NCBI RefSeq assembly: GCF_000317025.1
Contig: NC_019689.1
Coordinates: forward strand, 62,001-126,000
Length of the DNA: 64,000 nt
Reading direction: 5' to 3'
DNA from: Pleurocapsa sp. PCC 7327
Lineage (GTDB): Bacteria; Cyanobacteriota; Cyanobacteriia; Cyanobacteriales; Microcystaceae
Below, piece after piece: positions 4,419-58,858 of the stretch. The notes under the pieces are model-generated. The model was not told the DNA's origin. It made no database searches and worked only from the letters and a program-made list of their open reading frames with translations. How positions within the stretch are numbered: the stretch's first letter is position 1; each line of letters begins with the position of its first letter. A program made the position numbers and the translations under genes.

Positions 4419-5234
4419 CTATTGCTTTGGCGCTAACTTAACATTTTTTGCCAAACCAAGAATTTGTAAAACGCGAATCGTCATCCAAGTGAGATCGATT
4501 TCCCACCACTCCAAACCGTGACGTGCCGAATATTGATAGGCGTGATGATTGTTGTGCCATCCTTCGCCAAAAGTTAGCAAGGCAACCCACCAACAGTTTC
4601 TCGAATTATCGTTAGATTCATAACTTTGATAGCCAAATTTGTGAGTGGCGCTGTTAACAAACCATGTGAAATGAAATACGACGACTAAACGCACAAAAAT
4701 TCCCCAAATTACAAACGACCAACCGCCCCACCAGTAGAGCAGTAATCCTAAGACAATTTGAATGGGAATGAAATATTTTTCACAAAATTGATAGAAAGGA
4801 TCGTCTTGGATATCTTTGGTGTAGCGAGGAATCTCTGTCCTTGCTGGATTTTGGCATAACATCCAGCCCATATGACTCCACCAAAAACCTTTATTAGAAT
4901 CGTGGGGATCTAATTCGGTATCGGAATATTTATGATGGATTCGATGTCCGCCAATCCAATAAAGTGGACCACCCTGACAGGCAAGCGTACCACAAAAAAC
5001 TAGGATATACTCTAACCATTTGGGAACTTCAAAACTTCGGTGAGAAACTAAGCGATGAAATCCTAATGTAATTCCTATACCGCCAGTTAACCAATACAGT
5101 ACAAAGCTAATGCCTAAAGCACCCCAGCTAAAGTTACTGGGAAATAAAGCGAGTAAGGCTACGAGATGAATCGTAGCCATGTAAATAATAATGCTCCAAG
5201 CCGGAAAAAGTTTGTCAGATGTGGCAACAGTCAT
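4419..5234 (-). CDS. desC: Acyl-lipid delta-9 desaturase, copy 1 of tandem pair
   Basis: 271 residues, membrane-bound di-iron desaturase that introduces the first double bond into lipid-bound fatty acids. All three histidine boxes are present: HRLVSH, HRIHHK and HNNHH (in EGWHNNHHAYQ). Hydrophobic segments flank them (near residues 14-30, 35-55, 160-200). From IPRYTKDIQDD to NVKLAP it is identical in protein sequence to the neighbour at 5314-6141. Over 4476-4832 the DNA is identical too, while the N-terminal third and the stretch around the second half-box differ. This is typical of duplication with later gene conversion. Its own leader and terminator suggest separate expression. DesC1 versus DesC2 type cannot be decided here. 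Confidence 0.9.
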   Translation of the reverse strand: MTVATSDKLFPAWSIIIYMATIHLVALLALFPSNFSWGALGISFVLYWLTGGIGITLGFHRLVSHRSFEVPKWLEYILVFCGTLACQGGPLYWIGGHRIHHKYSDTELDPHDSNKGFWWSHMGWMLCQNPARTEIPRYTKDIQDDPFYQFCEKYFIPIQIVLGLLLYWWGGWSFVIWGIFVRLVVVFHFTWFVNSATHKFGYQSYESNDNSRNCWWVALLTFGEGWHNNHHAYQYSARHGLEWWEIDLTWMTIRVLQILGLAKNVKLAPKQ

Positions 5235-5256
5235 GCAATAACCTAGAGAAAAAAAT

Positions 5257-5280
5257 GGAAAAAATCGCGTTTTTAACGCG
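5257..5280 (-). terminator. Terminator between the two desC copies
   Basis: On the minus strand the hairpin CGCGTT-AAA-AACGCG is followed directly by ATTTTTTCC. It lies downstream of the 5314-6141 gene and upstream of the second copy, so the copies are likely transcribed separately. Confidence 0.65.
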
Positions 5281-5313
5281 AAATAAATAGGGTATTTAGC
5301 TATGAAAAAAAAC

Positions 5314-6141
5314 TTAGTCGCTCGATCGCGTTGGCGCTAACTTAACATTTTTTGCCAACCCAAGAATTTGTAGAACTCGAATCGTCATCCAAGTGAGATC
5401 GATTTCCCACCACTCCAAACCGTGACGTGCCGAATATTGATAGGCGTGATGATTGTTGTGCCATCCTTCGCCAAAAGTTAGCAAGGCAACCCACCAACAG
5501 TTTCTCGAATTATCGTTAGATTCATAACTTTGATAGCCAAATTTGTGAGTGGCGCTGTTAACAAACCATGTGAAATGAAATACGACGACTAAACGCACAA
5601 AAATTCCCCAAATTACAAACGACCAACCGCCCCACCAGTAGAGCAGTAATCCTAAGACAATTTGAATGGGAATGAAATATTTTTCACAAAATTGATAGAA
5701 AGGATCGTCTTGGATATCTTTGGTGTAGCGAGGAATATCTTCTTTTACGGAAGCATTTTCCCATAACATCCAACCGAGATGGCTCCACCAAAAACCTTTA
5801 TTAGAATCGTGGGGATCTAATTCGGTATCGGAATATTTATGATGGATTCGATGTCCGCCAATCCAATAAAGTGGACCACCCTGACAGGCGAGCGTACCAC
5901 AAAAAACTAGGACATACTCTAACCATTTGGGAACTTCAAAACTTCGGTGAGAAACTAAGCGATGAAATCCTAATGTAATTCCCATGCAAGCAGTTAGCCA
6001 GTAAAGCACGAAAGCGACTCCTACGGCTCCCCAGCTAAAGCTACTAGGAAATAAAGCGAGTAAGGCTATCAGATGAACCGTAGCTATGTAAATAATAATG
6101 CTCCAAGCCGGAGAAAGTTTGTCAGATGTGGCAACAGTCAT
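5314..6141 (-). CDS. desC: Acyl-lipid delta-9 desaturase, copy 2 of tandem pair
   Basis: 275 residues with the same three histidine boxes as its neighbour (HRLVSH, HRIHHK, HNNHH) and the same topology. The two proteins diverge mainly in residues 10-60 and at SHLGWMLWENASVKEDIPRY versus SHMGWMLCQNPARTEIPRY, and at the last residues (RSSD versus KQ). The leader is AT-rich and about 80 nt separate the two genes. A tandem pair could provide isozymes for different lipid positions or temperatures, as known for desC1/desC2. That is inference; the shared C-terminal half shows recent exchange between the copies. Confidence 0.9.
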   Translation of the reverse strand: MTVATSDKLSPAWSIIIYIATVHLIALLALFPSSFSWGAVGVAFVLYWLTACMGITLGFHRLVSHRSFEVPKWLEYVLVFCGTLACQGGPLYWIGGHRIHHKYSDTELDPHDSNKGFWWSHLGWMLWENASVKEDIPRYTKDIQDDPFYQFCEKYFIPIQIVLGLLLYWWGGWSFVIWGIFVRLVVVFHFTWFVNSATHKFGYQSYESNDNSRNCWWVALLTFGEGWHNNHHAYQYSARHGLEWWEIDLTWMTIRVLQILGLAKNVKLAPTRSSD

Positions 6142-7964: not shown

Positions 7965-10900
7965 ATGACTCAACTTTTCTCTCCCGATCCAAACAGCGAC
8001 AAAGATCCCTCTGGTCTCCAGCTTCATAGGGATGAAATTTCCTCTCAACTACAAGCCGAACAAGAATCTGCTCTCTCGTTAACTGTTGAAGAAAATGAAG
8101 AGTCATCGCCTGCTGAGGACTTACCCACGCTAGAGCCGCCAAAAATATCTTTAAAAGCCAAAGTAGCAGCTCTAGCAGGTATTGCGGTTATGCTTCCGGT
8201 TCTGGCTGTGGGAACGGCAACTTATTACTTTGGCAATCGAGCAATTAGCGAACAAACAATCCTGTCAAGACGAGCTGATACTACGGGCGTAGTCGAACCG
8301 AAATTAGTACAGCAAAAACGACTGCTGGCTACTTTGTTAATTGGAACTGGTGGAACAGCTTTGCTAGGTGGCGCACTTGCCGCACTCTTGGCTCGCCGTA
8401 CTTTTCGTTCGGCTGCAATTGCCGACGCAGCCACTGTAGAGCGAGGAGATGAAGAAGGAATACAGTTAATTAGAGAAGGAATTCAACCGCCACATCCATC
8501 TTACGATTCCGAAGAGATTCTTAAGATGAGCGTCGAAGAAGTCAGAAAAACCCTCAACTGCGATCGCGTCGTCGTCTACAGTTTAGACCAAGACTCCTAT
8601 GGAATAGTAGCAGCCGAATCGGTTCTCCCAGGCTATCCCCAAGCTTTAGGAAGAAAGATTGAAGACCCTTGTTTTGAAGCTAGATATCTAGACAAATATA
8701 AAAATGGTCGCGTCAGAGCGCTAGACAATATCTACGAAGCGGGGATGACTCCATGCTATATCGAGCAGTTGGAAACCTTAGAAGTCAAGGCAAATTTGGT
8801 TGCGCCGATCCTCAATGAAGGCAAGTTATTTGGTTTATTGGTCGCCCATCAGTGTTCGGGGACGCGTACTTGGCAGCAAAAAGAAATTGTGTTCGTCACT
8901 CAGATGGCAGCCCAAATGGGCTTTATGCTTGATTATGCCAAGCTTGTAGGCGATCGCGATCGACTGCAAAAACAAGCAGAAATCGAAGCGCAATGGACTC
9001 AATACTTTACCGACGCAATCCAACACATTCGCTCCTCGCTTAATCGAGAAGACATTCTCGAAGTCAGCACCGAAGAAGTCAGAAGAGTCCTCAACTGCGA
9101 TCGCGTTGTGGTCTACAGTCTAGATCGGAACTCTTATGGCGTGGTAATTGCCGAATCAGTGGCTCCAGGCTGGAGTAGAGCTTTAGGAAGAACGATAGAA
9201 GACCCCTGTTTTGAAGCGCGGTATTTGGAAAAGTATAAAAATGGTCGCGTCAGGGCGCTCAACAATATCCGCCAAGCGGGGATGACTCCATGTTATATCG
9301 AGCAATTGGAAACTCTCGAAGTCAAGGCGAATTTGGTTGCACCGATCCTCAACGAAGGCAAGTTATTTGGCTTATTGGTGGCGCATCAGTGTTCTGAACC
9401 TCGGATCTGGAAGCAGTATGAAATCAGATGGGTAGCGCAGAGTGCCACCCAAGTTGGCTTTGCTCTCGATAATGCCAACCTACTCGCCAACGCCACTCGC
9501 CTACAACAACAGCTAGAGACAGAAACCCAATGGACACAATACTTCACCGACGCGATCCAATATATTCGCTCCTCGCTCAATCGAGAGGATATTCTCGAAG
9601 TTAGCACTGAAGAAGTTAGAAGAGTCCTCAATTGCGATCGCGTCGTCGTCTACAGTCTAGATAGCAATTCCTATGGAGTGGTGGTAGCCGAATCAGTTCT
9701 CCCAGGCTACCCCAAGGCTTTAGGAAGAACCATTGAAGACCCCTGTTTTGAAGCTAGATATCTAGACAAATATAAAAATGGTCGCGTCAGGGCACTCAAC
9801 AATATCCGCCAAGCGGGGATGACTCCATGTTATATCGAGCAGTTAGAAACTCTCGAAGTCAAGGCGAATTTGGTTGTACCTATCCTCAATGAAGGCAAGT
9901 TATTTGGGTTGTTAGTCGCCCATCAGTGTTCGAGTCCGCGCGAGTGGAAACAGCATGAAATCAGATGGGTAGCGCAGATCGCCACCCAAATCGGCTTTGC
10001 TCTCGACAATGCCAAACTTTTAGTCAACTCTACTCATTTACAACAACAGGCAGCAATCGAAACTCAGTTAACACAGCAATTTACCGACGCAATCCAACAC
10101 ATTCGCTCCTCGCTTAATCGAGAAGACATTCTCGAAGTCAGCACCGAAGAAGTCAGAAGAGTCCTCAACTGCGATCGCGTCGTCATCTACAGTCTAGATC
10201 GGAACTCTTACGGCGTGGTAATTGCCGAATCAGTGGCTCCAGGCTGGAGTAGAGCTTTAGGAAGAACGATAGAAGACCCCTGTTTTGAAGCGCGGTATTT
10301 GGAAAAGTATAAAAATGGTCGCGTCAGGGCACTCAATAATATCCGCGAAGCTGGGATGACCCAATGCTACATCGAGCAATTAGAAACGTTGCAAGTTAAA
10401 GCTAATTTGGTTACGCCGCTCCTCAACGAAGGCAAGTTATTTGGCTTATTAGTTGCTCATCAGTGTTCTGAACCTCGCGTTTGGCAACAATTAGAAATTA
10501 GATGGGTAACGCAAATTGCTACCCAAGTCGGCTTTGCTCTCGATAATGCCACGCTTCTACGACAACTGGAGACTGAGGGCATGCAAAATCGATTGCTGAA
10601 AAACTTTACTCTCCGCATTCGGGAAAAGCTCAACGAAAAAAATCTTCTCAAAGTCACTGTTGAAGAAACCCGTAAAGCCATTGGTACTGACCGCGCCATC
10701 GTTTATCGCTTCGATGCCAATTGGGAGGGAACTGTTGTAGCAGAATCGGTTCTTCCTAGCTTCCCAAGAGCGCTGCGAGCGACAATCAAAGACCCTTGTT
10801 TTGCCAAGGAATATGCTCAAAAATATCGCGACGGTCGTATCCGGGCGATCGACAATATTTATGAGGCAGATCTGACCGAATGTCACCGAGAGCAACTAGA

Positions 10901-11819
10901 AGCCTTTGCTGTCAAAGCCAATTTGGTAGCACCGATTCTGACGGGCGATCGACTATATGGTTTATTAATTGTCCATCAATGCTCCGCACCCCGAAACTGG
11001 CAGAATTTTGAAATCGATCTATTGACTCAACTCGCTTTACAAACAGGACTGGCTCTCGATCGCGCTAGTCTGCTCAAAGAGGTAGAGCAAGCGCGGCAGC
11101 TAGCTCAAAAAGCTTCTCAAGAACAGTTGCGACAAAAAGAATTGCTCGCTCAGCAGATATCAGAACTGCTGAGCAATAGCAAAACGGCTTTCGATAGCCT
11201 CTGTGCCAAGATTACTCGTCACTCGCAAGCGATTGCAGATTTTCTCGCTCAAATGCAGGCAGTGACAGACTCGATTAGGGAAAAGACGACTAGCCTCAAA
11301 CAAGTAAAACTTCAACAGGGACAATCGAGTCAGACAGTACCAACCGAACAAAAAAACGTCGATTGGGTCGAGGATAGCATTGCCACAATCGAGGAAACCA
11401 TCGCGGAAGCTACTGAAAAAATGCAGCACCTGAGCCAGTCTTACCAACAACTGTTCGAGATGGTGAATTTCGTCAACGATCTCAGAGGACAGATGAACTA
11501 TCCACTCAGCAATGTATCGGTTGAAAGCGAACGAGGGGAAGAGGTAAGCCAGAGTTCGATTGTTTCCATTGGTAGGACAGTAAGTCCTTTAACGCATCGG
11601 TTAGCCAAACAGACGGCACAAATCGAATCTCTTATTAGAGAAATTGATATAGAAGCCAATGACGAACAAGCTCAGTCTCTAGCGTTTATCAACCAATTCG
11701 TTCGAGAAATCGCTAGCCTTGCCAGCCAGATTTCCGAACAATCTATGGCAGTAACGGAATCTTTTAATAAACTAGCGGAATTCGCCCAAGACCTGCCGAC
11801 CGATACCGATCTGTTGTAG
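7965..11819 (+). CDS. Membrane sensor with five tandem dual-Cys (DXCF-type) GAF domains and degenerate chemoreceptor tail
   Basis: 1284 residues. A charged N-terminus is followed by two membrane segments (about 67-88 and 119-143). Five GAF domains follow with a 179-residue period. Each has DPCF (C236, C415, C594, C773, C945) and a second cysteine exactly 28 residues later (C264, C443, C622, C801, C973). This is the Cys-Cys geometry of DXCF cyanobacteriochromes such as PixJ. The second Cys is followed by Tyr in GAF1-4 and by His in GAF5. After about residue 1040 comes a long helical region resembling a methyl-accepting signalling domain, but the conserved tip sequence is absent. Light sensing through a bilin is inferred. 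GAF2 and GAF4 share near-identical DNA. Non-binding, purely structural GAFs are the alternative. Confidence 0.8.
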   Translation: MTQLFSPDPNSDKDPSGLQLHRDEISSQLQAEQESALSLTVEENEESSPAEDLPTLEPPKISLKAKVAALAGIAVMLPVLAVGTATYYFGNRAISEQTILSRRADTTGVVEPKLVQQKRLLATLLIGTGGTALLGGALAALLARRTFRSAAIADAATVERGDEEGIQLIREGIQPPHPSYDSEEILKMSVEEVRKTLNCDRVVVYSLDQDSYGIVAAESVLPGYPQALGRKIEDPCFEARYLDKYKNGRVRALDNIYEAGMTPCYIEQLETLEVKANLVAPILNEGKLFGLLVAHQCSGTRTWQQKEIVFVTQMAAQMGFMLDYAKLVGDRDRLQKQAEIEAQWTQYFTDAIQHIRSSLNREDILEVSTEEVRRVLNCDRVVVYSLDRNSYGVVIAESVAPGWSRALGRTIEDPCFEARYLEKYKNGRVRALNNIRQAGMTPCYIEQLETLEVKANLVAPILNEGKLFGLLVAHQCSEPRIWKQYEIRWVAQSATQVGFALDNANLLANATRLQQQLETETQWTQYFTDAIQYIRSSLNREDILEVSTEEVRRVLNCDRVVVYSLDSNSYGVVVAESVLPGYPKALGRTIEDPCFEARYLDKYKNGRVRALNNIRQAGMTPCYIEQLETLEVKANLVVPILNEGKLFGLLVAHQCSSPREWKQHEIRWVAQIATQIGFALDNAKLLVNSTHLQQQAAIETQLTQQFTDAIQHIRSSLNREDILEVSTEEVRRVLNCDRVVIYSLDRNSYGVVIAESVAPGWSRALGRTIEDPCFEARYLEKYKNGRVRALNNIREAGMTQCYIEQLETLQVKANLVTPLLNEGKLFGLLVAHQCSEPRVWQQLEIRWVTQIATQVGFALDNATLLRQLETEGMQNRLLKNFTLRIREKLNEKNLLKVTVEETRKAIGTDRAIVYRFDANWEGTVVAESVLPSFPRALRATIKDPCFAKEYAQKYRDGRIRAIDNIYEADLTECHREQLEAFAVKANLVAPILTGDRLYGLLIVHQCSAPRNWQNFEIDLLTQLALQTGLALDRASLLKEVEQARQLAQKASQEQLRQKELLAQQISELLSNSKTAFDSLCAKITRHSQAIADFLAQMQAVTDSIREKTTSLKQVKLQQGQSSQTVPTEQKNVDWVEDSIATIEETIAEATEKMQHLSQSYQQLFEMVNFVNDLRGQMNYPLSNVSVESERGEEVSQSSIVSIGRTVSPLTHRLAKQTAQIESLIREIDIEANDEQAQSLAFINQFVREIASLASQISEQSMAVTESFNKLAEFAQDLPTDTDLL

Positions 11820-12138
11820 TAACTATCTTGAGCGTCAACCCCTCGTGAGGTTAGTGAAATTACTATTGACATACTTATTTAGTATCTCAAGAAACTCTGA
11901 GCGAGAGAAAGGTTTTGTTAGATAGTCAGTTGCTCCAGCCATTCTGGCTTTAGCGCGATCGATAAGTCCTGTATTTCCCGTCATCATTACGACTGGCTTT
12001 GTCTTGAGTAAAGAATGATTTCTAATCAAACGACAGAGTTGGTAGCCATCTATTTATTCCTGGCATGTTTACGTCCATCATAATTAGATCGGGTTCAATG
12101 CGAATCATTTCTCTCAAAGCATTTATTGGATTGTTAAT

Positions 12139-12999
12139 TATAGCAGTCCTATTTGATATAAGAGAAGAAAATTATCTTTCTTCTCTTGAAAAACAAGAAG
12201 TAATTCAATGGTTACAGCACAAAGGAGAATGGAACTGGGAAGAATTAATCGAATATCTCCAAAAACAGTATCAAGTAAGCTATAGTTCGTTACAGAGTTA
12301 CTATCAATTGTTTAATGATGCTGGAATTAGCTGGCATAAAGGAGTAAAAAAAAACAAAGCAAGACTTAGAACAAGTCAAAGCAGTCAATCAAGATATCCA
12401 TTCTCTCTTAAAAGAAAATCAATCAGCCATTAAGTCTGGAGAAATTGCAGCATTTGTCATTGATGAATGTCATCTTATGAGTGGAGATATTTGCGGTTAT
12501 GGGTGGGGAAACTGCAAAGAAAGAAGAACTGTCGATGTTCTCAATTATCGTGACCGTCAAACCTATTATGGTGCAGTGGATTTGTTTTCTCAACAATTAT
12601 TGATTCAAAAAACCAAAACTGCTGATGGAACACAGACCTTAAACTTTGTAAAATATCTTCAATCTCAAAGACCCAATAGCCGTTTAATCCTGATTTGGGA
12701 TGGAGCGAGTTATCATCGTGGTCAAGAATTTCAGGATTACTTGGCTGAGGTTAATCATCATTGTCAAGACAATGCAAGGCAGATTCATTGTCAACTATTT
12801 GCCCCTTATGCGCCGTCTGAGAATCCAATTGAAAATATTTGGTCACAAGTCAAAAATTTCTTGAAAAGATTTCATCGTTTCTGTAAATCCTTTTCGATCG
12901 CAAAACGATTATTTGAGTTATTTATTGATTCCCATTTATTTACGATGCCTAACTTAAATCATTATGACGCTTTCTCTCATTTATTTTAGGATTGCTATA
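12139..12999 (+). mobile_element. IS630-family element, 857 bp, with TA target duplication
   Basis: The element runs from 12141 (TAGCAGTCCT) to 12997 (AGGATTGCTA). These inverted ends match at 9 of 10 positions. It is flanked by TA on both sides (12139-12140 and 12998-12999), the target duplication of the IS630/Tc1-mariner superfamily. Excision restores the reading frame of the host gene, which fixes the borders. It is shorter than most IS630 elements of this subtype. Inside there is no ATG, GTG or TTG start ahead of the transposase similarity, so it looks like a copy with its left part deleted. Confidence 0.9.
12143..12989 (+). pseudogene. IS630 DDE transposase, two frames, start lost
   Basis: Frame 1 (to 12433) carries SLQSYYQLFNDAGISWHK, the end of the DNA-binding region. 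The DDE catalytic part continues in another frame (FVIDECHL, LIWDGASYH, SENPIENIW, i.e. D, D and E) to 12989. The switch falls on a run of nine A at 12346-12354. The change needed is +1 (or -2), because -1 meets a stop after five codons. A-run slippage of polymerase is known in IS630-type elements and could join the frames. The usual N-terminal helix-turn-helix of about 60 residues is missing and the first frame has no start codon inside the element, so the copy is probably not autonomous. Confidence 0.75.
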
Positions 13000-13377
13000 G
13001 AAAAACTGAGCCATCATATCCTTCTAACAAACGATTAATTTCTCGAAGAACGATCGGGCTATCATCAATACATAAAATTTTGTAGGTTGACTGAGAGACT
13101 TTTTTTAGTTCTCCTTCAGAAAGGGTGATTTGATTATGCTTTAACATTTTTTTTAGAGTCTCCCAATTTTCTTGCTGATTTTTTCTAAACCAGCTTTGCA
13201 CCATTGGGAGACTATTTGATGGCTGAATCTTGAAGCGCATTAACAAGATAGCTAAGATTTCTTCCTTGGTATTCATTAGTCTTAAAAATTTTATCTTTTA
13301 CCTCTCCAATGCCAATTATCATCTATTTTCTTCTGCTGGCTTGTGATATCGATCGCTCTATTTAAAACTCATCAAAC

Positions 13378-14421
13378 TCAACGAATCGGAATAAATCCAG
13401 CTCTAGCAATCAGTTTCTGACCCTGGGGCGTGAGGAGAAAATTCGCATAAGCTTCTCCTACTCGCTCTTCAATGCCACCGTTCTGCTTGATTATTACGTA
13501 TAGGTAATGCGTAAGCGGATATTGTGCGGTTTGAAAAGCCTCGATATTTATCTCATTGCGTCGATTGGGACATTTAGTTGAAGAGATGAAAGGCTTTTGG
13601 TAAGGAGAAATCAATTCGCCTGGTTTTTGACCTAGTGGTAATGTCTTAATCGTACATTGAGGCAAAACTACGGCAGCAGAATCATAGTAAATCCCACCTG
13701 GGTTGTCTGCTAGCTGGCGCAGCGCTTCTGTTGTTGTCGAGACGAACCCAACATTCGAGTCAAACGCTTGACCTTTTAAAATTTTTTCCTCAAACCACTC
13801 AACTGTACCGCCGACACTCGCTGGACGAGAATAGGGCACAATTTGTAGGTCAGGTCCGCCAATCTGCTGCCAATTAACTATTTGACCGTTGTAGATCGAT
13901 CGCAATTGGTCGAGGGTTAACCCAGAAATATCCAAGTCTCGATGAACGGCTACAACGACACTATCAACAGCAACAGGAATTTGTTTGAGATTAAAACCTC
14001 GTTGTCTAGCTAGCTCGTATTCCTCTTCGCGCAAAGGATGGGAAGACTGAGCAAAGGTCAGTTGACCCTCTAGTAACATTCGGATTCCCGTTCGAGAACC
14101 GGGAGGCTCATGTTTGGGTTGTATGTAGCGCAACTGCAATTCAGGTCGTTCTGCTTGAATGGCTGAATCTACCAACAGCCGAAGCGGTGCCCATTCCGTG
14201 CTGCCGCCGTAATTAAAAACTCCAGTAGCCACATTTTTTACTTGAGCAAAACTGTTAGGAATTCTGACTTCAGATTGCGCGGACTGCGCGTTTGACTCTT
14301 GGACTAACTGCCAAAGTCCTTTGCCGATTAATCCTAGCGACCAGATTAGAGAAATCGCAATTGCGATACTAATTCCCATTACAGTCGGCGAAATCACTCG
14401 TTTATGTTTTTCTTTGCTCAT
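13378..14421 (-). CDS. PstS-like phosphate-binding protein, membrane-anchored
   Basis: 347 residues. One N-terminal hydrophobic segment (about 14-35) works as signal anchor. The rest is a periplasmic binding fold of the PstS type: FNYGGSTEWAPLRLLVDSAI, TFAQSSHPLREEEYELARQRG, PVAVDSVVVAVHRDLDISGLTLDQLRSIYNG and YPLTHYLYVII are family hallmarks. No pstCAB genes adjoin, so it is an orphan binding protein. It may hand phosphate to a distant Pst system or act as a sensory subunit. It is transcribed away from the second GAF-array gene, sharing a 221-bp divergent region with it. Confidence 0.8.
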   Translation of the reverse strand: MSKEKHKRVISPTVMGISIAIAISLIWSLGLIGKGLWQLVQESNAQSAQSEVRIPNSFAQVKNVATGVFNYGGSTEWAPLRLLVDSAIQAERPELQLRYIQPKHEPPGSRTGIRMLLEGQLTFAQSSHPLREEEYELARQRGFNLKQIPVAVDSVVVAVHRDLDISGLTLDQLRSIYNGQIVNWQQIGGPDLQIVPYSRPASVGGTVEWFEEKILKGQAFDSNVGFVSTTTEALRQLADNPGGIYYDSAAVVLPQCTIKTLPLGQKPGELISPYQKPFISSTKCPNRRNEINIEAFQTAQYPLTHYLYVIIKQNGGIEERVGEAYANFLLTPQGQKLIARAGFIPIR

Positions 14422-14642
14422 TTATGACAATGATAAATAATTGCTAAATAGATTACTGACTTTATTGCTATGGTGTGTTGGTATTATTTATAGTTAAGTG
14501 TAAACACTTACGGGTTTTTACGGAATTTATTTACCGTGCATTTTCCTTTGTAGATTACAACCTTTAAATTTTGGAAACTTACTGTTTGTCAATCTCTCTT
14601 TAGATAGAAACTTTATCATTTAACAGTTGAGAAAATTTATCG

Positions 14643-17600
14643 ATGACTCAGACTCCTCCTCCTGAGCCTAGCGATGGGCAAAACCACTTTAGTCAGACCT
14701 CTCATGGCAATAACCCCCCCATAGAGAACTTGGCTAAAACCAACTCGCAATCCCAAGTAGAAACAAGACAGTTATTTGAAGAAGCGATTAGGCGACTGCA
14801 TCAAGCTTCTAAAGAAGAAGACATTTTAAAAGTCATCGTAGAAGAAGCGCGAAAAGTATTCGATTGCGATCGCGTCGTCGTTTATAGTTTAGACCGAGAC
14901 TCCTATGGGGTAGTAGTCGCCGAATCCGTCGCCCCAAGCTGGTCAAAAGCGCTAGGAAGAACGATTGAAGACCCCTGTTTTGAATCCAGATATCTAGAAG
15001 AGTACAAAAACGGTCGCGTTAGGGCGATCGACAATATTTACAAAGCTGGAATGACTTCATGCTACCTCGAACAGTTAGAGAAGCTGGAAGTCAAAGCCAA
15101 TTTAGTTGCGCCAATTCTCGATCGCGGCAGGTTATTTGGCTTGTTAGTAGCGCATCAATGTTCTGGGACGAGGATTTGGCAACAAGTGGAAATTGCCTTT
15201 TTAACCCAGCTAGCCAAACAAGCTGGGTTTTTACTCGATCGCGCTCAAAATAAAGAGGAGACTGCTCGCTTGCAACAACAAACAGAAACAGAAACTCAGT
15301 GGACGAATTTATTGGCAGATATTAGCCAGCAACTCTATCAATCTCGTAACGAAGAAGACATCCTCAAAGCCAGCGTCAGAGAAGTTAGAAGAGTTCTCAA
15401 TTGCGATCGCGTCGTCGTCTACGGTTTAAACCAAGACTCCTATGGAGTGGTAATAGCCGAATCGGTGGCTCCAGGCTGGACGAAATCTTTGGGAATAACC
15501 ATCAAAGACCCGTGTTTTGAAGCCAAGTACCTCGAAAAGTACAAAAATGGTCGCGTCAAGGCATTAAACAATATCTACGAGTCGGGAATGACTCCGTGCT
15601 ACATCGAGCAACTAGAGAAATTGGAAGTCAAGGCAAATTTGGTCGCGCCGATTCTCGATCGAGGTAAAATATTCGGCTTATTAGTCGCGCATCAGTGTTC
15701 GAGTTCGCGCGAGTGGAAGCAGCACGAGATTGCATGGATGGCACAAGTTGCCATGCAAGTCGGTTTTGCTCTCGACAATGCCAAATTATTAGCCGAACGC
15801 GATCGCCTGCAACAACAAGCCGAGACGGAAACGCAGTGGACGCAATACTTTACCGACGCAATCCAGTATATTCGTCAATCTCCTAATGAAGAAGATATTC
15901 TCAAAGCGAGTGTCAGAGAAGTTAGAAGAGTCCTCAATTGCGATCGCGTCGTCGTCTACGGTTTAAACCAAGACTCCTATGGAGTGGTAATAGCCGAATC
16001 GGTGGCTCCAGGCTGGACAAAATCTTTGGGAATAACCATCAAAGACCCGTGTTTTGAAGCCAAGTACCTCGAAAAGTACAAAAATGGTCGCGTCAAGGCA
16101 TTAAACAATATCTACGAGTCGGGAATGACTCCGTGCTACATCGAGCAACTAGAGAAATTGGAAGTCAAGGCAAATTTGGTCGCGCCGATTCTCAACGAAG
16201 GCAAGTTATTTGGGTTACTGGTGGCGCATCAGTGTTCGGAGGTGCGCGATTGGAAACAGTACGAAATCAGATGGGCAGCGCAAATTGCCACCCAAGTCGG
16301 CTTTGCTCTCGACAATGCCAAACTCCTAAACAACTCTAGCGATTTGCAAAAGCGATCCGATAGCGAAACCCAATGGATGCAGGTGTTACAGGAATGCCTT
16401 CAGCATCTGCGTCAATCGAGCGATCGCGAAGAAATTCTCGAAGCGACCGTTGAAGAAGCTCGAAGAATCCTCAACTGCGATCGCGTTCTCGTGTACGGTC
16501 TCGATCGAGATTCCTATGGAGTAGTAGTAGCCGAATCGGTGGCTCCAGGCTGGATGAGAGCTTTGGGGATAACCATCAACGACCCGTGTTTTGAAGTCAG
16601 ATACCTAGAAAAGTATCGCAATGGTCGCGTCAAGGCATTAAACAACATCTACGAAGCGGGGATGACCCAATGTTATATCGAGCAGCTAGAAAAGCTGGCA
16701 GTCAAAGCCAATTTAGTTGCGCCGATTTTATATGAAGGCAAAGTATTTGGATTGTTGGTAGCACATCAGTGTTCTGGAGCGAGGATATGGCAGCCAGAAG
16801 AAATTGAGTTTTTGACTCGGCTAGCTGCACAAGTGGGCTTTGTGCTTGAGTACGCCAAGCTCATGAGCGATCGCGAACAACTGCAAAAACAAGTACAGAT
16901 TGAGGTTGAATTGACGCAATATTTTACCGATGCCATCCAACATATCCGCTCCTCGCTCAATCAGAAACATATTCTCGAAGTCAGCACTGAAGAAGTCAGA
17001 AGAGTCCTCAACTGCGATCGCGTCGTCGTCTACAGCCTCAATCGAGACTCCTATGGCGTGGTAGTTGCCGAATCAGTTCTCCCAGGCTATCCCAAAGCTT
17101 TGGGGCGGACGATAGAAGACCCCTGTTTTGAAGCTCGCTATCTAGACAAATATAAAAATGGTCGCGTCCGGGCACTCAACAATATCCGCGAAGCGGGAAT
17201 GACCCAATGCTATATCGAGCAGCTAGAAAAGCTGGCAGTCAAGGCAAATTTAGTTATGCCAATTCTCAACGAAGGCAAGTTATTTGGCTTATTGGTAGCG
17301 CATCAGTGTTCGAGTCCGCGCGAGTGGAAGCAGTATGAAATCAGATGGGTAGCGCAAATTGCCACTCAAGTCGGCTTTGCTCTCGATAATGCCACCCTCC
17401 TACGACAAGTCAAGCAATCTTCTCAGGCAGCGGAGCATAGCTCAAAAGAGCAACATAAACAAATAGAACTGCACAAGCAGGAAATCTCAGAAATGCTCAG
17501 CCAAACAGATTGCCAGAAGCTTTCGACTGAAGCCCTTCGCCAGTCGGAAGCCATTATTAATATCCTTCATAAAATTCAAGGGGTTGTCGATTTCGCCAGA

Positions 17601-18263
17601 GGAGTTGTTTTCAGCGCTCAACAAATAAAACTGCAAGAACAGCAGGCTAATTTGACAGTACAAGCCGTTCGAGAAACCCTCAACCAGTCGTTAGATAGTA
17701 TTTCTGCTATCGGGGACGCATTTAAAGATGCCTCGGTGAAAGTCATGCGTCTGAGTCAGTCTTCCCAAAAGCTCTTTGAGGCAGTACGCACAATTAAGGA
17801 ATTAGCAAAGCAAATGACCCAACAATCGATGAATGTAACAATTATGGCAGGTCGAACCGGATATGTTGGGCAAGACTCTGTTGGCGAACTGGCTGAGAGC
17901 GTGCTATCTCTAACGCAGAAATTAGTCGAGGCGACAGCAAACATAGAACCGCTCTTTAGTGCGATCGAACTAGAAATCAAAGAACTGGCTTTTGGGATGG
18001 AGGAAGGGAAGCAACGGTTGTTTGGCGGAACTGAACCGATCGAAGAAACTCGGCAAAAGCTTGATTGGGTGATGACTGTCAATGACAAAACGAATGCTCT
18101 GGCAGACAAAATCGCCCAAGCTGCGACTAAAGGAGTTCAAACTTCGACCTCCGCTAGTCAATCGGTTCAGGAAGTTGCTAACCTTGCCAACCAGATTTTA
18201 GAGCAATCCATAGCTGTAACCGAATCCTTTAACAAGCTGGCAGCATTGACTCAAAAGCTTTAA
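14643..18263 (+). CDS. Soluble sensor with five tandem dual-Cys (DXCF-type) GAF domains and degenerate chemoreceptor tail
   Basis: 1206 residues without membrane segments, so probably cytoplasmic, unlike its paralogue at 7965. Five GAF domains repeat every 179 residues. DPCF cysteines are C112, C291, C470, C649 and C828; the partners 28 residues on are C140, C319, C498, C677 and C856, each followed by Tyr. GAF2 and GAF3 are nearly identical in DNA across about 260 nt, a recent internal duplication. From about 930 on there are long helices with heptads, including SQSSQKLFEAVRTIKELAKQ and VQEVANLANQILEQS. These resemble a chemoreceptor signalling hairpin whose conserved tip is lost. It probably forms an operon with the CheA-like gene 43 nt downstream. 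Confidence 0.82.
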   Translation: MTQTPPPEPSDGQNHFSQTSHGNNPPIENLAKTNSQSQVETRQLFEEAIRRLHQASKEEDILKVIVEEARKVFDCDRVVVYSLDRDSYGVVVAESVAPSWSKALGRTIEDPCFESRYLEEYKNGRVRAIDNIYKAGMTSCYLEQLEKLEVKANLVAPILDRGRLFGLLVAHQCSGTRIWQQVEIAFLTQLAKQAGFLLDRAQNKEETARLQQQTETETQWTNLLADISQQLYQSRNEEDILKASVREVRRVLNCDRVVVYGLNQDSYGVVIAESVAPGWTKSLGITIKDPCFEAKYLEKYKNGRVKALNNIYESGMTPCYIEQLEKLEVKANLVAPILDRGKIFGLLVAHQCSSSREWKQHEIAWMAQVAMQVGFALDNAKLLAERDRLQQQAETETQWTQYFTDAIQYIRQSPNEEDILKASVREVRRVLNCDRVVVYGLNQDSYGVVIAESVAPGWTKSLGITIKDPCFEAKYLEKYKNGRVKALNNIYESGMTPCYIEQLEKLEVKANLVAPILNEGKLFGLLVAHQCSEVRDWKQYEIRWAAQIATQVGFALDNAKLLNNSSDLQKRSDSETQWMQVLQECLQHLRQSSDREEILEATVEEARRILNCDRVLVYGLDRDSYGVVVAESVAPGWMRALGITINDPCFEVRYLEKYRNGRVKALNNIYEAGMTQCYIEQLEKLAVKANLVAPILYEGKVFGLLVAHQCSGARIWQPEEIEFLTRLAAQVGFVLEYAKLMSDREQLQKQVQIEVELTQYFTDAIQHIRSSLNQKHILEVSTEEVRRVLNCDRVVVYSLNRDSYGVVVAESVLPGYPKALGRTIEDPCFEARYLDKYKNGRVRALNNIREAGMTQCYIEQLEKLAVKANLVMPILNEGKLFGLLVAHQCSSPREWKQYEIRWVAQIATQVGFALDNATLLRQVKQSSQAAEHSSKEQHKQIELHKQEISEMLSQTDCQKLSTEALRQSEAIINILHKIQGVVDFARGVVFSAQQIKLQEQQANLTVQAVRETLNQSLDSISAIGDAFKDASVKVMRLSQSSQKLFEAVRTIKELAKQMTQQSMNVTIMAGRTGYVGQDSVGELAESVLSLTQKLVEATANIEPLFSAIELEIKELAFGMEEGKQRLFGGTEPIEETRQKLDWVMTVNDKTNALADKIAQAATKGVQTSTSASQSVQEVANLANQILEQSIAVTESFNKLAALTQKL

Positions 18264-18306
18264 ACGGTTGCAAAAACTTTCTTTCGTACCTAATAACAAG
18301 CAGGCT

Positions 18307-19707
18307 ATGGTTATCAATCCCGAATTAAGAGAGCAAGCCTACCAACTTTTTCGAGAAGAAGCTCTAGAACTCCTACAGCAGGTTGAAGAGATCTTGCAAG
18401 CGTTGCTAGACGACCCTAATTTAGCTAAACACGATGGCTTGAATCAAGCAATAAATTTTCTCGAAACCCTCCAAGACGGAGCTTCTCAACTTGACTTAAT
18501 TGAGGTTCAAATCTCAATTTATCATCTGCAATCTCTCTTAGGATCTCTCGAGCAAGAATCCGTTGAAATTAACCCCGAACTAACACGGGAACTCGAGCAA
18601 GCCAAAACCAATCTCCGGACAACGTTACTCGCTTGCTTCGACACGAACCCATCAGCAGAAAGCCCTGAGACTAGCAACAAAGACGAGCCATCGAATGCCG
18701 ACAAACCGAATATGGATATTCATGAGTCAATTTTATATATAGAACTAAGTCAGTCTCTCGAACGATTAGAAAAATTCCTATCCGCACCAGAGACGGATGT
18801 CCTAAAACTTAGGAGACATATAGAAGCCATTTTGGCTCTTGGGGAGATGTTGGGACTCTCTGAGTTAGTCGCGATCGCTCAAACTACTCTATCTGTTCTG
18901 CAAGCCAGCCCTAACATAGCTCGCACTATCGGTCAGCTAGCCTTAGTCTGCTTTTGTAGCGTTAGAGATCTACTCTCGCACAATAATCTGCCTACAGAAA
19001 TTTTAGAGCAATCTCTAACATTGATATCACAGTGGGATAAAAATCATCAAGACAAGGAGCCTGTGTCAGCAACAGTACAATTGTCTAAGCAGACATCGGA
19101 CAATCTTCTACTACCGGAAAAAACCCAAGCTCCAACTGAATTAGAGCTAAAAGCTTTAGCGAAGATGAATCCACCTGTCTCTTCAGAGTGGACGCTCAAG
19201 ACTTCCCAACTATTTGTTTGGTTAGTAGGAGATGCTATCTTTACCTTGCCCTGCAACAGGATTGAAGAAAATTTGCTGCCCAAAGTTATACAAATGATTC
19301 AATTTGAGAAGCGGCGGTTTTTGCAATGGCGCAAGCAAATTGCTCCAATTTATCAACTGTCCGAACTGCTAAGCAACTGTCCTTTGCCAGAACTAAATCC
19401 CAGCCAGGGTGGAGGAACTTCTTCTGGTGAGATAACGCTAACGCTGGTCATCAAACAAAGTCAGCAAATTATTGCCTTAGAGTCAGCGATCGACCATCTA
19501 ATTACCAAGTCAGAACTTGTTGTCAAGCCTTTCGATCCCGCACTCGTGCTTCCTAGTTATTGCTACGGCTACTGTGCCTGGGAAAGCGAGCGCCTTGTTA
19601 AAATCATCGATGTTGCTGCTCTGCTCGACGAGATCTTTTCTCAACATAAAATGTTAGAAAGGGGTAGTTTTGCCAAAACCCATCAAGGCGATCGCGTTTC
19701 AGTTTAG
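18307..19707 (+). CDS. CheA-like scaffold without kinase domain: HPt-like helices plus CheW-like C-terminus
   Basis: 466 residues from ATG 18307; a TTG at 18268 would add 13. The N-terminus (ELREQAYQLFREEALELLQQ) matches the first HPt helix of CheA, but the phospho-acceptor region reads INFLETLQDGASQL with no histidine. A second helical bundle (about 140-240) contains ALGEMLGLSELVAIAQ, again HPt-like without the histidine. The C-terminal 170 residues match the CheW-like domain of cyanobacterial CheA: FVWLVGDAIFTLPCNRIEE, FLQWRKQIAPIYQLSELL and SELVVKPFDPALVLPS. The dimerisation and HATPase domains are absent. It can at most be a coupling or decoy partner for the GAF-array receptors. The LRAT-like gene starts 8 nt after its stop. 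Confidence 0.75.
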   Translation: MVINPELREQAYQLFREEALELLQQVEEILQALLDDPNLAKHDGLNQAINFLETLQDGASQLDLIEVQISIYHLQSLLGSLEQESVEINPELTRELEQAKTNLRTTLLACFDTNPSAESPETSNKDEPSNADKPNMDIHESILYIELSQSLERLEKFLSAPETDVLKLRRHIEAILALGEMLGLSELVAIAQTTLSVLQASPNIARTIGQLALVCFCSVRDLLSHNNLPTEILEQSLTLISQWDKNHQDKEPVSATVQLSKQTSDNLLLPEKTQAPTELELKALAKMNPPVSSEWTLKTSQLFVWLVGDAIFTLPCNRIEENLLPKVIQMIQFEKRRFLQWRKQIAPIYQLSELLSNCPLPELNPSQGGGTSSGEITLTLVIKQSQQIIALESAIDHLITKSELVVKPFDPALVLPSYCYGYCAWESERLVKIIDVAALLDEIFSQHKMLERGSFAKTHQGDRVSV

Positions 19708-19715
19708 TCTATAGG

Positions 19716-20432
19716 ATGGGTTGTGTTGCCAAAAAATTATTCAATATGTCACGCGGGGATCAAATTTACGTCTACAGGGAATTAATTAACCTGCAAGGCG
19801 TTTACGAACATCACGGGATCGACTGCGGTGATGGGAGTGTCATTCATTATCGCAAACCCAGCGAAACCATCGAAAGAACCTCAATAGAAACTTTTACCAG
19901 AGGAAATCAAATTTACGTCAGAGAATATCCAACAGGATTTTGTTTTATTGCGGATGTCGTCGTCGATCGCGCCCAAAGTCGATTGGGCGAGCGAAAATAC
20001 AATTTACTATTCAATAATTGCGAGCATTTTGCAACTTGGTGTAAAACTGGCATTAGCGATAGCAAACAAATTAGAGAGTTTGTGCCAATCGTAACTCAAC
20101 TCAATACCTCTCAATTATACGAACCTCTCAAACAAGCTCTGCGAGGTTCAGATCCTAAAAATGCCCAACAGATCTTAAATGAAGCTTTGAGGGATATAAA
20201 AGTGGTCTGGGACGATATACAACCTCGCTATAAAGCAGCCCTTCAAGAAGTAGATGACTGGAATCGAGTAGCGGTAGAAGCCCTCAAGCTAAATCGAGAA
20301 GATTTAGCCAAGGAAGCCCTAAAACGAAAGCTAACCTCTAAAAAACAGGCTGGGGATCTGCAAGAACAATTGCAGCAGCTAGCAACAATAACAGAAACGC
20401 TGCTCCGTAACAGTCAGAATTTACAACCTTAA
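19716..20432 (+). CDS. LRAT/NlpC-type domain fused to a PspA-like helical tail
   Basis: 238 residues, or 228 if ATG 19746 is the true start, which is plausible because the fold begins at MSRGDQIYVY. The N-terminal domain has the lecithin:retinol acyltransferase layout: H33 (in EHHGIDCGDG), H44 (VIHY) and C102 in NNCEHFA, a Cys/His centre that usually acts on lipid acyl groups. Residues 165-238 are helical and resemble the PspA/Vipp1 coiled coil (LKLNREDLAKEALKRKL, then a Gln/Leu heptad run). Such proteins bind membranes. The gene lies 8 nt after the CheA-like gene, so both probably share a transcript. Acyltransfer at a membrane is an inference. Confidence 0.7.
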   Translation: MGCVAKKLFNMSRGDQIYVYRELINLQGVYEHHGIDCGDGSVIHYRKPSETIERTSIETFTRGNQIYVREYPTGFCFIADVVVDRAQSRLGERKYNLLFNNCEHFATWCKTGISDSKQIREFVPIVTQLNTSQLYEPLKQALRGSDPKNAQQILNEALRDIKVVWDDIQPRYKAALQEVDDWNRVAVEALKLNREDLAKEALKRKLTSKKQAGDLQEQLQQLATITETLLRNSQNLQP

Positions 20433-29251: not shown

Positions 29252-29270
29252 TCAAATAGGATTGCTATAC
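29252..29270 (-). mobile_element. Solo IS630 terminal relic
   Basis: The stretch ATCAAATAGGATTGCTATA matches the inverted left end of the IS630 copy at 12141 at 18 of 19 positions, including the terminal TA. No partner end is visible, so it is a leftover of a lost copy or part of a decayed MITE. It now lies directly upstream of the Mut7-C gene. Confidence 0.55.
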
Positions 29271-53998: not shown

Positions 53999-54601
53999 AT
54001 GCAAACTACTCTAGCCAACGGCAAAAGGCTATATACATTTAAACCGCGCGATCTCATTCCGCTACCGAGAGATGTTGTGTGGTTATTGCAACAAGGAGCA
54101 GTAAAAACCCTGACTTGGAACGAAGAGGGCACATTAATAACGCTAGGATACTGGGGAGCTGGGGACGTAGTAGGTCAGCCATTCTCTCAAATAGCTCCTT
54201 ATCAAATTCAATGTTTGACTCGCGTCAAGGCGGTTTGTATTTCTTTGCATCAGTGGAATTGGTCGTCGGATGCCGTTCGTCGCTACATCCAGCAAACAGA
54301 GGAACTCTTGTATATTATCCGCTCGGATCGAATTCCCCAACGCTTATTCAAAATTCTGATTTGGTTGGCACAAAAATTCGGTCGGAAGGTTCAACAAGGA
54401 CAGTTAATTGAGTTACCGCTGACTCATCAAGAATTGGCAGAAGTAGCTGGTACGACGAGAGTAACCGTAACCAAGCTACTCAATCAATTTGAACGCAAAG
54501 GAACGATTTATCGTCCTTACCGCCGTGCAATTGTGGTGCGATCTTCTAACCCTTATTACCAAGCTGAGTTCGATCGAAACAAGATCGAGGCTATACCTTG
54601 A
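53999..54601 (+). CDS. Crp/Fnr-family transcriptional regulator
   Basis: 200 residues from ATG 53999; GTG 53978 would add seven. The N-terminal beta-roll (LPRDVVWLLQQGAVKTL...LGYWGAGDVVGQPF) is a cyclic-nucleotide-type sensor, though the consensus cAMP-binding residues are not evident. The C-terminus has the Crp winged helix-turn-helix: LPLTHQELAEVAGTTRVTVTKLL. It resembles NtcA-branch regulators but is a different paralogue; the ligand is unknown. The 3' end overlaps the convergent response-regulator gene by 11 bp. Confidence 0.85.
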   Translation: MQTTLANGKRLYTFKPRDLIPLPRDVVWLLQQGAVKTLTWNEEGTLITLGYWGAGDVVGQPFSQIAPYQIQCLTRVKAVCISLHQWNWSSDAVRRYIQQTEELLYIIRSDRIPQRLFKILIWLAQKFGRKVQQGQLIELPLTHQELAEVAGTTRVTVTKLLNQFERKGTIYRPYRRAIVVRSSNPYYQAEFDRNKIEAIP

Positions 54602-57029: not shown

Positions 57030-57614
57030 TTACAATGGAACTTCATCGGCAAAACTCTCTCGCTTCTCAAATCTCAAAGCTCCCGCAGTCGATCCCCACA
57101 CTTGCTCGTGGGTATTGACATCCATGCCTCGATCCCAACTGACAAAGATCTTTTCTGTCAGTTCTACTTCGCTAACTAAGTAGGTTTGACGACCATTGCG
57201 TTCGATAAAACAGCCATTTCCTTCAACATTTCCCCGAAAAATCTCGTTCTCTTTTCTAAAAATCATCGAACAGTTATATCGTCTTTGAAGGCAATCGGGA
57301 GTAATGGTTTTCAAAATTGCTAAATCTCGTCCCGCACCTGCATAGCGCAAGGGATCTTCAAGGCTGTAATTTTCTACATAGATGGAATCTCCGCGATCGA
57401 CCAAACGATGAACGCCTTGACGATAGGGACTCCAGAGATCGTAGTCATAGGTTTGCTCGGAATAAAACCCTATTCCACCAAAAAATTCCCAGGGTAAAGG
57501 ACGAAAAAAAACGCGAATGTGAGCGTAGGTTTTAGGGTCTTCATAGGACTGTTTTTGATTGCTAAAATCCCCAGCCAGATAACGAGCTAGAGTCAGCATT
57601 AAATCGTTTTTCAT
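57030..57614 (-). CDS. cpeT: Phycobiliprotein chromophore lyase CpeT/CpcT
   Basis: 194 residues of the CpcT/CpeT family, beta-barrel lyases that attach a bilin to a beta-subunit cysteine (Cys-153/165 class). LTLARYLAGDFSNQKQSYED, FFRPLPWEFFGGIGFYSEQ and YSLEDPLRYAGAGRDL are diagnostic. As it sits between cpeS and cpeR, it most likely adds phycoerythrobilin to phycoerythrin. It starts 3 bp after the cpeS stop, so the pair is translationally coupled. Confidence 0.85.
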   Translation of the reverse strand: MKNDLMLTLARYLAGDFSNQKQSYEDPKTYAHIRVFFRPLPWEFFGGIGFYSEQTYDYDLWSPYRQGVHRLVDRGDSIYVENYSLEDPLRYAGAGRDLAILKTITPDCLQRRYNCSMIFRKENEIFRGNVEGNGCFIERNGRQTYLVSEVELTEKIFVSWDRGMDVNTHEQVWGSTAGALRFEKRESFADEVPL

Positions 57615-57617
57615 CCT

Positions 57618-58154
57618 TCATCCCTCATTGTTTAAAAAACGAATTTCTGAAGAAAAAGAAGCGGTGACAACTCCCGAACCAGCACTGGTTTTAATCAGCG
57701 ATACTCGCAAGCGCAAGTTAGGAGTAGCAAACCAAATTCTTTCTTCTGCTGCTGCGCGATCGTACTCGGTTTCTAGGACGAATACGCTATCTTCGGTAAT
57801 GTGATACTTTCCCACCGAAGGAATGGTTTCTGCATACCCTTGGTCTCGGAGTAACCGTCCTTTGGTCGGGTTATCGGGATCGGGAATGGGAACGAGAACT
57901 GTCGTTCCTTTCAGTACCTCTTCTTCATTCCAATCCGACTCTCCTTCCCAACTCATGCGAAAGGGAGAAGTCGCAAGTTGGGGATCGATCTGGTAGGACT
58001 TACAGAGGTTAACGACCTCTGGATTATCTTTAGCCAAAGAAACAATATCGATGGTCGAAGTCACTGCTTCAAAGTGAGCAAAGGCGAGATGGTGAGCGCT
58101 GCGTTGCGATCGCCAACGTCCTAGAGAAAGTTTTACGAATTCGGTAAGATCCAT
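57618..58154 (-). CDS. cpeS: Phycobiliprotein lyase CpeS (CpcS family)
   Basis: 178 residues. The N-terminus FVKLSLGRWRSQRSAHHLAF is the family signature of CpcS/CpeS lyases, lipocalin-like barrels that load bilin on Cys-82/84 of phycobiliproteins. FRMSWEGESDW and the C-terminal NLRLRVSLIKTSAGSGVV also fit. Its place in the operon next to cpeT and phycoerythrin linkers argues for CpeS rather than CpcS or CpcU. Confidence 0.8.
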   Translation of the reverse strand: MDLTEFVKLSLGRWRSQRSAHHLAFAHFEAVTSTIDIVSLAKDNPEVVNLCKSYQIDPQLATSPFRMSWEGESDWNEEEVLKGTTVLVPIPDPDNPTKGRLLRDQGYAETIPSVGKYHITEDSVFVLETEYDRAAAEERIWFATPNLRLRVSLIKTSAGSGVVTASFSSEIRFLNNEG

Positions 58155-58234
58155 TACAAAATTGTTGAATTTAGCTAGATAAATTAAAACAAGAACTCAG
58201 TAAAGCAAGATAAAAAGGTTGGCGATCGCTCGGT

Positions 58235-58839: not shown

Positions 58840-58858
58840 CCAGACAAAATGCCAGAAC

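Follow-up and report, generated by a model that had tools for sequence, protein, structure and literature searches.

The 64,000-nucleotide window analysed here (Pleurocapsa sp. PCC 7327, contig NC_019689.1, positions 62,001 to 126,000 of the forward strand) encodes two long proteins, hereafter receptors A and B, each carrying five consecutive GAF domains followed by a degenerate signalling domain of the methyl-accepting chemotaxis protein (MCP) type. Both are likely to be divergent PixJ/PtxD-type photoreceptors formed by tandem GAF domains of the DXCF cyanobacteriochrome class, probably with blue/green photocycles, and with the mechanism, partners and output proposed below. This reading is built on what is observed in their sequence geometry, lineage, predicted fold, repeat spacing, purifying selection and conserved neighbours.

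The reading frames of both receptors are open over their full length, and the Pfam GAF model matches five stretches in each of them (E-values of 2.8e-101 for A and 5.5e-105 for B). As claimed in a preliminary description of this DNA, all ten GAF domains (A1 to A5 and B1 to B5, Table 1) contain a DPCF motif with a second Cys 28 residues later, and the residue that follows this second Cys (position C+1) is Tyr in nine of them, A5 being the only one with Cys-His; both types are hereafter referred to as CY and CH. Pairwise identities range from 44 to 88% over the ten GAFs, from 61 to 88% among the nine CY ones, and from 44 to 51% between A5 and the CY domains. Since the ten GAFs are homologous repeats, their agreement does not represent ten independent events. 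Within A1-A4 and B1-B5 the domains recur every 537 nt (179 aa) without exception, and the step from A4 to A5 takes 516 nt (172 aa). Receptor A also exhibits two hydrophobic stretches (residues 61-88 and 120-143, separated by ~31 residues) that, from hydropathy only, are taken as transmembrane.

Sequence searches against the PDB returned TePixJ entries as the nearest ones for A5 (E of 5e-42) as well as for a CY query (E of 5e-37), the latter running from the second half of B3 into the first half of B4 and aligning as two segments. In an AlphaFold model of the A2-A3 pair (63 aligned sequences, mean pLDDT of 90.5, pTM of 0.62), a single 52-residue helix, residues 138-189, bridges the two GAFs. 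Foldseek matches to this model, ordered by E-value, start with the GAF-PHY region of a Cph1-type phytochrome (8w26) and continue with TePixJ (4fof and 3vv4, with 4glq in sixth place), the TePixJ matches showing TM-scores on the target of 0.84-0.90 and identities of 43-45%. The fold of the model matches that of TePixJ; that both Cys residues probably face the pocket is indicated by alignment of the window GAFs with TePixJ, which reproduces its numbering for C494 and C522, and not by the model coordinates. Considering that (i) the Pfam GAF matches, the proximity to TePixJ in sequence and the fold match correspond to a GAF of the phytochrome superfamily type, and (ii) the canonical Cys and the second Cys of the DXCF motif are found at the TePixJ spacing in 10/10 domains, the domains are assigned to the DXCF class, whose chemistry is described in PMC11284453; the His after the canonical Cys, usual but not strictly defining, is lacking in nine domains and present in A5. 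They share with TePixJ (3vv4, 4fof, 4glq) the GAF fold, the DPCF motif with the canonical Cys at +28 and the Asp of DXCF, and differ from it in that TePixJ has Cys-His, whereas nine window domains have Cys-Tyr and occur in arrays of five. The DXCF geometry recognised in the preliminary description is therefore supported by Cys spacing, sequence match and fold match, as well as by the tree presented below, and the multi-chromophore light sensor that it envisaged stands, on geometry, sequence, lineage and fold, as the likely function.

The history of the copies was explored through their synonymous (dS) and nonsynonymous (dN) divergence. Over all 36 pairs of the nine CY copies, dS goes from 0.37 to 2.0, the upper values being near saturation and rough, with dN/dS of 0.11-0.34, and both TAT and TAC are used as codons for the Tyr at C+1. 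In these copies silent sites have drifted while both Cys and the Tyr have been maintained. The large dS, the low dN/dS and the encoding of Tyr by either codon point to selection rather than to recent copying. Orthologous repeats of two Mastigocoleus records (n = 8) yield dN/dS values of 0.02-0.11.

A contig scan with the nine CY domains produced 41 pattern matches. Of these, 31 encode a relative, and they fall into 28 separate loci from other cyanobacteria; the scan patterns held the CY motif or the DPCF motif, and these loci are therefore chosen in part for CY. Records of Pleurocapsa, Xenococcaceae, Hydrococcus, Hyella, Mastigocoleus, Calothrix, Scytonema, Aliterella and Chamaesiphon are included among them. 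The longest arrays, in two Mastigocoleus records, reach eight CY domains, and PtxD of Nostoc has seven GAFs (PMC5812497), so that the claim of an extreme copy number, five in a row, is not borne out. When 386 genomes drawn from the phylum were searched, with at most nine candidates per genome scored, matches at E <= 1e-72 appeared in two (the window's own and G101), the same-genus G001 and G003 not being among the matches there; a separate search of 39 relatives gave matches at E <= 1e-72 in G000, G001 and G003. The CY receptor type is uncommon, yet it occurs in several groups.

The GAF tree, obtained by a quick method with no bootstrap from 194 GAFs (112 CY, 57 CH and 25 other) after removal of the motif columns, contains a main CY lineage of 117 rows (100 CY, 7 CH and 10 other; SH-aLRT of 94, not one of the starred, well supported values). 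The nine CY domains of the window are part of it, and A5 falls outside. Within the lineage, each of the 107 domains of CY or CH type, a count that includes the nine from the window, holds both Cys, with Tyr at C+1 in 100 and His in 7. The group of A5 (99, starred) comprises six rows, with last GAFs of receptor A-type proteins of other species, the member from locus L037 being CY. Parsimony needs 13 changes between His and Tyr on this tree, at least five of them forced by starred branches, and Tyr and His have therefore replaced each other more than once; this recurrent switch beside the bilin-binding Cys constitutes a natural experiment on the role of the C+1 residue. A separate branch of the tree (SH-aLRT of 84) is formed by two-GAF frames of 395-489 aa, some ended by the contig, from L049-L051 and L053-L057, seven out of the eight holding at least one CY-type domain with an intact Cys pair.

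Regarding the chromophore, the ferredoxin-dependent bilin reductase family has three matches in the genome, two of them just past the window end, so that reduced bilins should be available. The preliminary description related Tyr at C+1 to biliverdin acceptance, and an alternative reading accordingly has the CY domains binding biliverdin, or another bilin, and sensing longer wavelengths. A Tyr at this position is indeed unusual, and PixJ1 reconstituted in E. coli is reported to have a potential for biliverdin binding (PMC5812497). However, the engineered biliverdin binder AnPixJg2_BV4 carries four changes (H293Y, F308T, H318Y and I336V) and keeps H322 after Cys321 (PMC8156171), which situates its Tyr residues at C-28 and C-3, with His at C+1. 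Counting from the Cys, the nine CY domains have Cys and Met at those two places, and do not share the Tyr pair (AnPixJ 293 and 318) of the BV4 type. Because the Tyr residues of AnPixJg2_BV4, the one engineered member compared, sit elsewhere, a link between C+1 Tyr and biliverdin finds no support and was rejected as an argument. The availability of reduced bilins, together with the presence of the second Cys in 10/10 domains, which is consistent with a blue-shifted dual-Cys cycle, further makes this alternative reading very improbable.

As for the photocycle, which in the CY domains may be altered, as the preliminary description envisaged, the C+1 His contacts in AnPixJ the B-ring propionate and a water at the D ring (PMC8156171), and its TePixJ counterpart, H523, moves on photoconversion. 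CY domains of the lineage were compared with 43 CH domains outside it at three TePixJ positions. Position 457 is Cys in 97/100 lineage CY domains, position 465 is Leu in 67/100 of them versus Phe in 39/43 of the outside CH domains, and position 530, assigned to helix alpha4 by residue counting and not from structure, is Leu or Ile in 99/100 versus Phe in 36/43. Phe residues on helix alpha4 and on beta2 have been linked to the trapped-twist mechanism of teal-type DXCF domains (PMC5240096). TePixJ itself has Leu at 530, as most CY domains do, and is blue/green. This comparison suggests, if tentatively, blue/green cycles for the nine CY domains, and perhaps a different photoproduct for A5.

The regularity of the arrays was evaluated in two sets of adjacent domains, where pairs are not independent because the repeats stem from duplications. 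The first one includes 83 pairs with both Cys in both domains (window, L031-L058, L090, L139 and L140), showing Cys-to-Cys distances of 179 residues in 60 pairs, 172 in five, 177 in four, 180 in five and other values in nine. All five 172 distances lie just before the last GAF of a receptor A-type protein (window A, L031, L032, L035 and L037); the difference between 179 and 172 is seven, one heptad, and one L048 pair lies at 186. In the second set (window, L031-L058 loci and other loci from the first genome searches), the 179 distance is found in 55/69 CY-CY pairs versus 3/19 pairs with a CH domain, 13 of the latter 19 being at 171-174. Different genera share the 179-residue length, which would be expected if the repeats form a coiled-coil stalk. 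Receptors with as many as eight similar dual-cysteine bilin domains in a row provide in addition a natural test of why one colour sensor is repeated, be it for photon capture, a graded response or mechanical amplification.

The near-constant spacing and the predicted continuous linking helix would also suit an array that is mostly optically silent or structural, fixing the length of the stalk and the oligomer, with only some domains (A5, for example) being photoactive. Moreover, a review states that photoisomerisation can be suppressed by mutation of the residue following the Cys (PMC5578081), and the nine domains without the usual His might thus be poorly photoactive. Ten of the 117 lineage GAFs lack the canonical Cys motif, among them the first GAFs of the second receptors of L031, L035, L036 and L037, which are without both Cys (on a separate overlapping frame in L035); the arrays of relatives can therefore contain dead first domains. 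Such a mostly silent array is nonetheless unlikely in the window, since both Cys, the Asp and the Tyr are retained in all nine CY copies under purifying selection, and the 107 lineage domains of CY or CH type all keep both Cys.

Among characterised receptors, two invite comparison. PtxD, the seven-GAF phototaxis receptor of Nostoc punctiforme, similarly combines serial bilin GAFs with an MCP-type tail within a taxis gene cluster, but two of its GAFs use a second Cys and it covers six colours (PMC5812497), whereas the ten window GAFs are all of DXCF type and nine belong to one lineage. The window receptors also differ from it in their degenerate MCP tip and in their neighbours, namely a PstS-like periplasmic binding protein (PBP), an HPt-CheW protein devoid of a kinase domain and a response regulator that is interrupted. 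PixJ1/TaxD1, of the tax1 system of Synechocystis, is similar to receptor A in having two transmembrane stretches, a bilin GAF, with a blue/green cycle, and an MCP-type tail, as well as response regulator and CheW-type neighbours (PMC5812497); it differs in having one bilin GAF instead of five, in that the window has no adjacent CheA, and in that the extracts of PMC5812497 mention no PBP. Features of such membrane receptors are divided between both window proteins, A having two hydrophobic stretches and an MCPsignal match below the cut-off, and B a match above it and no such stretch, with degenerate tips in both. Since PtxD and PixJ1 act in phototaxis (PMC5812497) and a genome paper reports pix-type genes in a baeocyte-forming Pleurocapsales species (PMC8580901), a role of A and B in light-directed movement is inferred from the family.

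The PBP gene lies between both receptors, and the nearest solved relative of its product by sequence is Sll0540 (9l8j). Its adjacency was judged in 17 of the 28 relative loci, L033 and L049-L058, with frames of one or two GAFs, being left out. A homologue adjoins the receptor in 11 of the 17 (L031, L032, L034, L035, L036, L037, L038, L040, L043, L044 and L047), and another is found beside the receptor in G003 and at one receptor locus out of two in G101; since L038 and G001 denote a single contig, they were counted once. The order receptor, PBP on the minus strand, receptor, as in the window, is displayed by L031, L032 (with one extra small gene between), L034, L035, L036 and L037. Two broader interpretations were rejected: that the PBP marks cyanobacteriochrome MCP loci in general, because the genome contains one match at E <= 1e-40 versus 11 PF00015 matches, and that it is exclusive to these receptors, because matches occur in 17/39 genomes. 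Ten PBP neighbourhoods fetched from elsewhere (L116-L125, the neighbours of L122 and L124 being outside the scan) contain in five cases a signalling or second binding-protein gene adjoining or near the PBP: a Ser/Thr kinase in L116, L117 and L119, Peripla_BP_6 in L117 and L118, and a histidine kinase in L125; neighbours in L120, L121 and L123 are of other kinds. The PBP family may therefore serve signalling proteins of several kinds. Cooperation between a PstS-like protein and a chemoreceptor has a known precedent in PstS and the phosphate-taxis receptor CtpL of Pseudomonas. CtpL has a large periplasmic ligand domain, from which receptor A differs in the short segment between its hydrophobic stretches.

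At the output end, the MCPsignal model (Pfam cut-off of 34.6 bits) scores 39.6 bits in receptor B and 20.7 bits in receptor A, and the chemoreceptor tip is much changed in A, in B and in eleven receptors of relatives. PF00015 has 11 matches in the genome, 10 of them above the cut-off. One regular expression for the tip, applied to nine loci of other MCPs in the genome, detected usual tips in L095, L097 and L098 and changed ones in L099 and L102, and found no match in L094, L096, L100 and L103, though the first two of these rank with the best Pfam matches. The gene that follows receptor B encodes a protein with no Pfam match at 0.01 besides CheW that aligns with HPt-CheW(-receiver) proteins of L038, L043, L048 and L090; a Pfam scan of those from L038, L043 and L048 found no kinase domain, the L090 one being aligned only and outside the scan. 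Fusions to a receiver occur in L038, L048 and, by alignment, L090. L043 and L048 have the HPt His, which the window protein and those of L038 and L090 lack. From the set that identifies a CheA (HPt with its phospho-His, dimerisation, ATPase and CheW-like domains), the window protein has only the CheW-like domain and an HPt without the His. A model of this protein was poor (pLDDT of 56, 5 sequences) and was not used. An HPt-CheW homologue or CheA stands 3' of the receptor in L038, L043, L047 and L048, many other loci ending soon after the receptor. In L043 a response regulator is followed by PBP, receptor, HPt-CheW and finally CheA, which the end of the contig truncates; L044 has the first three, and the window contains HPt-CheW and an interrupted response regulator without CheA. 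The upstream 431-432-aa proteins of L043 and L044, with a C-terminal receiver, give a layout reminiscent of PixG.

The short response regulator gene adjoining that of the PBP (11838-13276, minus strand) is interrupted by an insertion sequence (IS) element of IS630-like type. The transpos_IS630 model gives 74.7 bits, below its cut-off of 100, on the open reading frame (ORF) 12477-12989, and the terminal inverted repeats were found as a 13-base pattern, a repeat finder with a minimum of 14 having missed them. A third copy of this 13-base end stands alone at 29257-29269, where no chance match is expected, and is perhaps the relic of another element.

By analogy with the known DXCF family, the bilin and the photocycle of A and B would be as follows. 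Each GAF would attach phycocyanobilin at the canonical Cys, probably isomerised to phycoviolobilin. In the dark, the DPCF Cys would add to C10, making the domain absorb blue; under blue light, the D ring would flip, the second bond would break and a green-absorbing state would form, perhaps a teal-absorbing one in A5. As the GAFs are predicted to be joined by one continuous helix, with a repeat of nearly constant length (179 residues, 172 before the last GAF of A), the states of several of them could travel along the coiled-coil stalk to the degenerate chemoreceptor hairpin. The candidate partners would be the kinase-less HPt-CheW protein and, for the membrane receptor, the membrane-anchored PstS-like protein, the likely output being light-directed behaviour, such as the motility of dispersal cells.

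To the possibly poor photoactivity of the CY domains and the lineage GAFs devoid of the canonical motif, several further observations must be added that weigh against this reading of A and B as PixJ/PtxD-type photoreceptors. No membrane-type hydrophobic stretch was found in receptor B, from hydropathy only. The MCPsignal score of receptor A falls short of the cut-off, both receptors largely lack the chemoreceptor tip that certain other MCPs of the genome possess, the HPt His is missing, the response regulator is interrupted, no CheA gene was found beside A or B, and the three CheA-type matches in the genome are all away from the receptor locus. The PBP, moreover, was not found in 6 of the 17 judged loci, L039, L041, L042, L045, L046 (upstream side cut off) and L048. 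The degenerate tips, the dead HPt, the IS-interrupted response regulator and the absence of an adjacent CheA could be taken as signs of a decaying locus whose receptors no longer signal. Yet both long frames are intact and dN/dS between copies is well below 1; in addition, the tip degeneracy is common to relatives in other genera and the HPt His loss to L038 and L090, and both therefore look like lineage states; among the defects noted, the interruption of the response regulator was seen only in the window. Decay is thus quite improbable. The kinase-less HPt-CheW protein raises a different question, whether the output is not taxis but, for example, gene regulation or a second messenger. The lack of a kinase beside the receptors, the HPt-CheW-receiver fusions of relatives, and the Ser/Thr kinases that adjoin or lie near PBP relatives in some other genomes are in line with it, whereas CheA adjoins the same receptor type in L043 and L047, and the receiver protein upstream in L043 and L044 likewise speaks for taxis; such an output is possible, but not likely.

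A more elaborate version of the photoreceptor reading can be offered as a doubtful proposal: receptor A could take a dual input, the anchored PBP reporting a periplasmic solute to its membrane stretch, and its four CY and one CH domains reporting blue/green light along one rigid stalk of 179-residue repeats, with output via the degenerate tip to the kinase-less HPt-CheW scaffold and not through a normal CheA path. The conserved PBP neighbour suggests that light and solute may be read by one complex; if true, phototaxis and chemotaxis would be joined in one system. Among the open-access papers listed by literature searches, none was recognised on Cys-Tyr DXCF domains and none linking a PBP with a cyanobacteriochrome, which is no proof of absence; new to us are the CY lineage and its arrays of fixed length, the pairing of two receptors, the PBP beside them and the partner without a kinase.

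Table 1. Features of the receptor locus, in window coordinates.
Feature	Position	Strand	Details
Receptor A	7965-11819	+	1284 aa; two hydrophobic stretches, 4 CY-type and 1 CH-type DXCF GAFs, degenerate MCP signalling domain
GAF A1 (DPCF...CY)	8466-8984	+	C236/C264
GAF A2 (DPCF...CY)	9003-9521	+	C415/C443
GAF A3 (DPCF...CY)	9540-10058	+	C594/C622
GAF A4 (DPCF...CY)	10077-10595	+	C773/C801
GAF A5 (DPCF...CH)	10593-11111	+	C945/C973
Response regulator, last part (receiver end)	11838-12053	-	39% identity to residues 365-425 of the L043 response regulator
IS630-like element	12139-12999	+	imperfect 13-bp terminal inverted repeats, 12139-12151 / 12987-12999
Response regulator, first part (receiver start)	12995-13276	-	translation read by eye
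PstS-like periplasmic binding protein	13378-14421	-	between A and B; PBP_like_2 E 2.5e-27; N-terminal hydrophobic anchor, aa 8-37
Receptor B	14643-18263	+	1206 aa; five CY-type DXCF GAFs, degenerate MCP signalling domain
GAF B1 (DPCF...CY)	14772-15290	+	C112/C140
GAF B2 (DPCF...CY)	15309-15827	+	C291/C319
GAF B3 (DPCF...CY)	15846-16364	+	C470/C498
GAF B4 (DPCF...CY)	16383-16901	+	C649/C677
GAF B5 (DPCF...CY)	16920-17438	+	C828/C856
HPt-like + CheW protein, kinase-less	18268-19707	+	TTG opens the ORF; ATG at 18307; CheW E 8.2e-9

Other genes of the window were also annotated. A gene at 19716-20432 (plus strand) encodes an LRAT domain and, after it, a PspA/IM30-like stretch that does not reach the Pfam cut-off. 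At 4419-6141 (minus strand), two adjacent and closely similar desaturase-like genes (271 and 275 aa, translations read by eye) represent a tandem duplication. The minus strand also carries, at 54591-56480, an unusual hybrid regulator of 629 aa that combines HPt and OmpR-type DNA-binding domains with three receiver matches, and, at 57030-60598, a phycoerythrin-type cluster with CpeT, CpeS and two rod linkers, near which, immediately outside the window, the two bilin reductase matches are situated (G000:C1:126160-127637).

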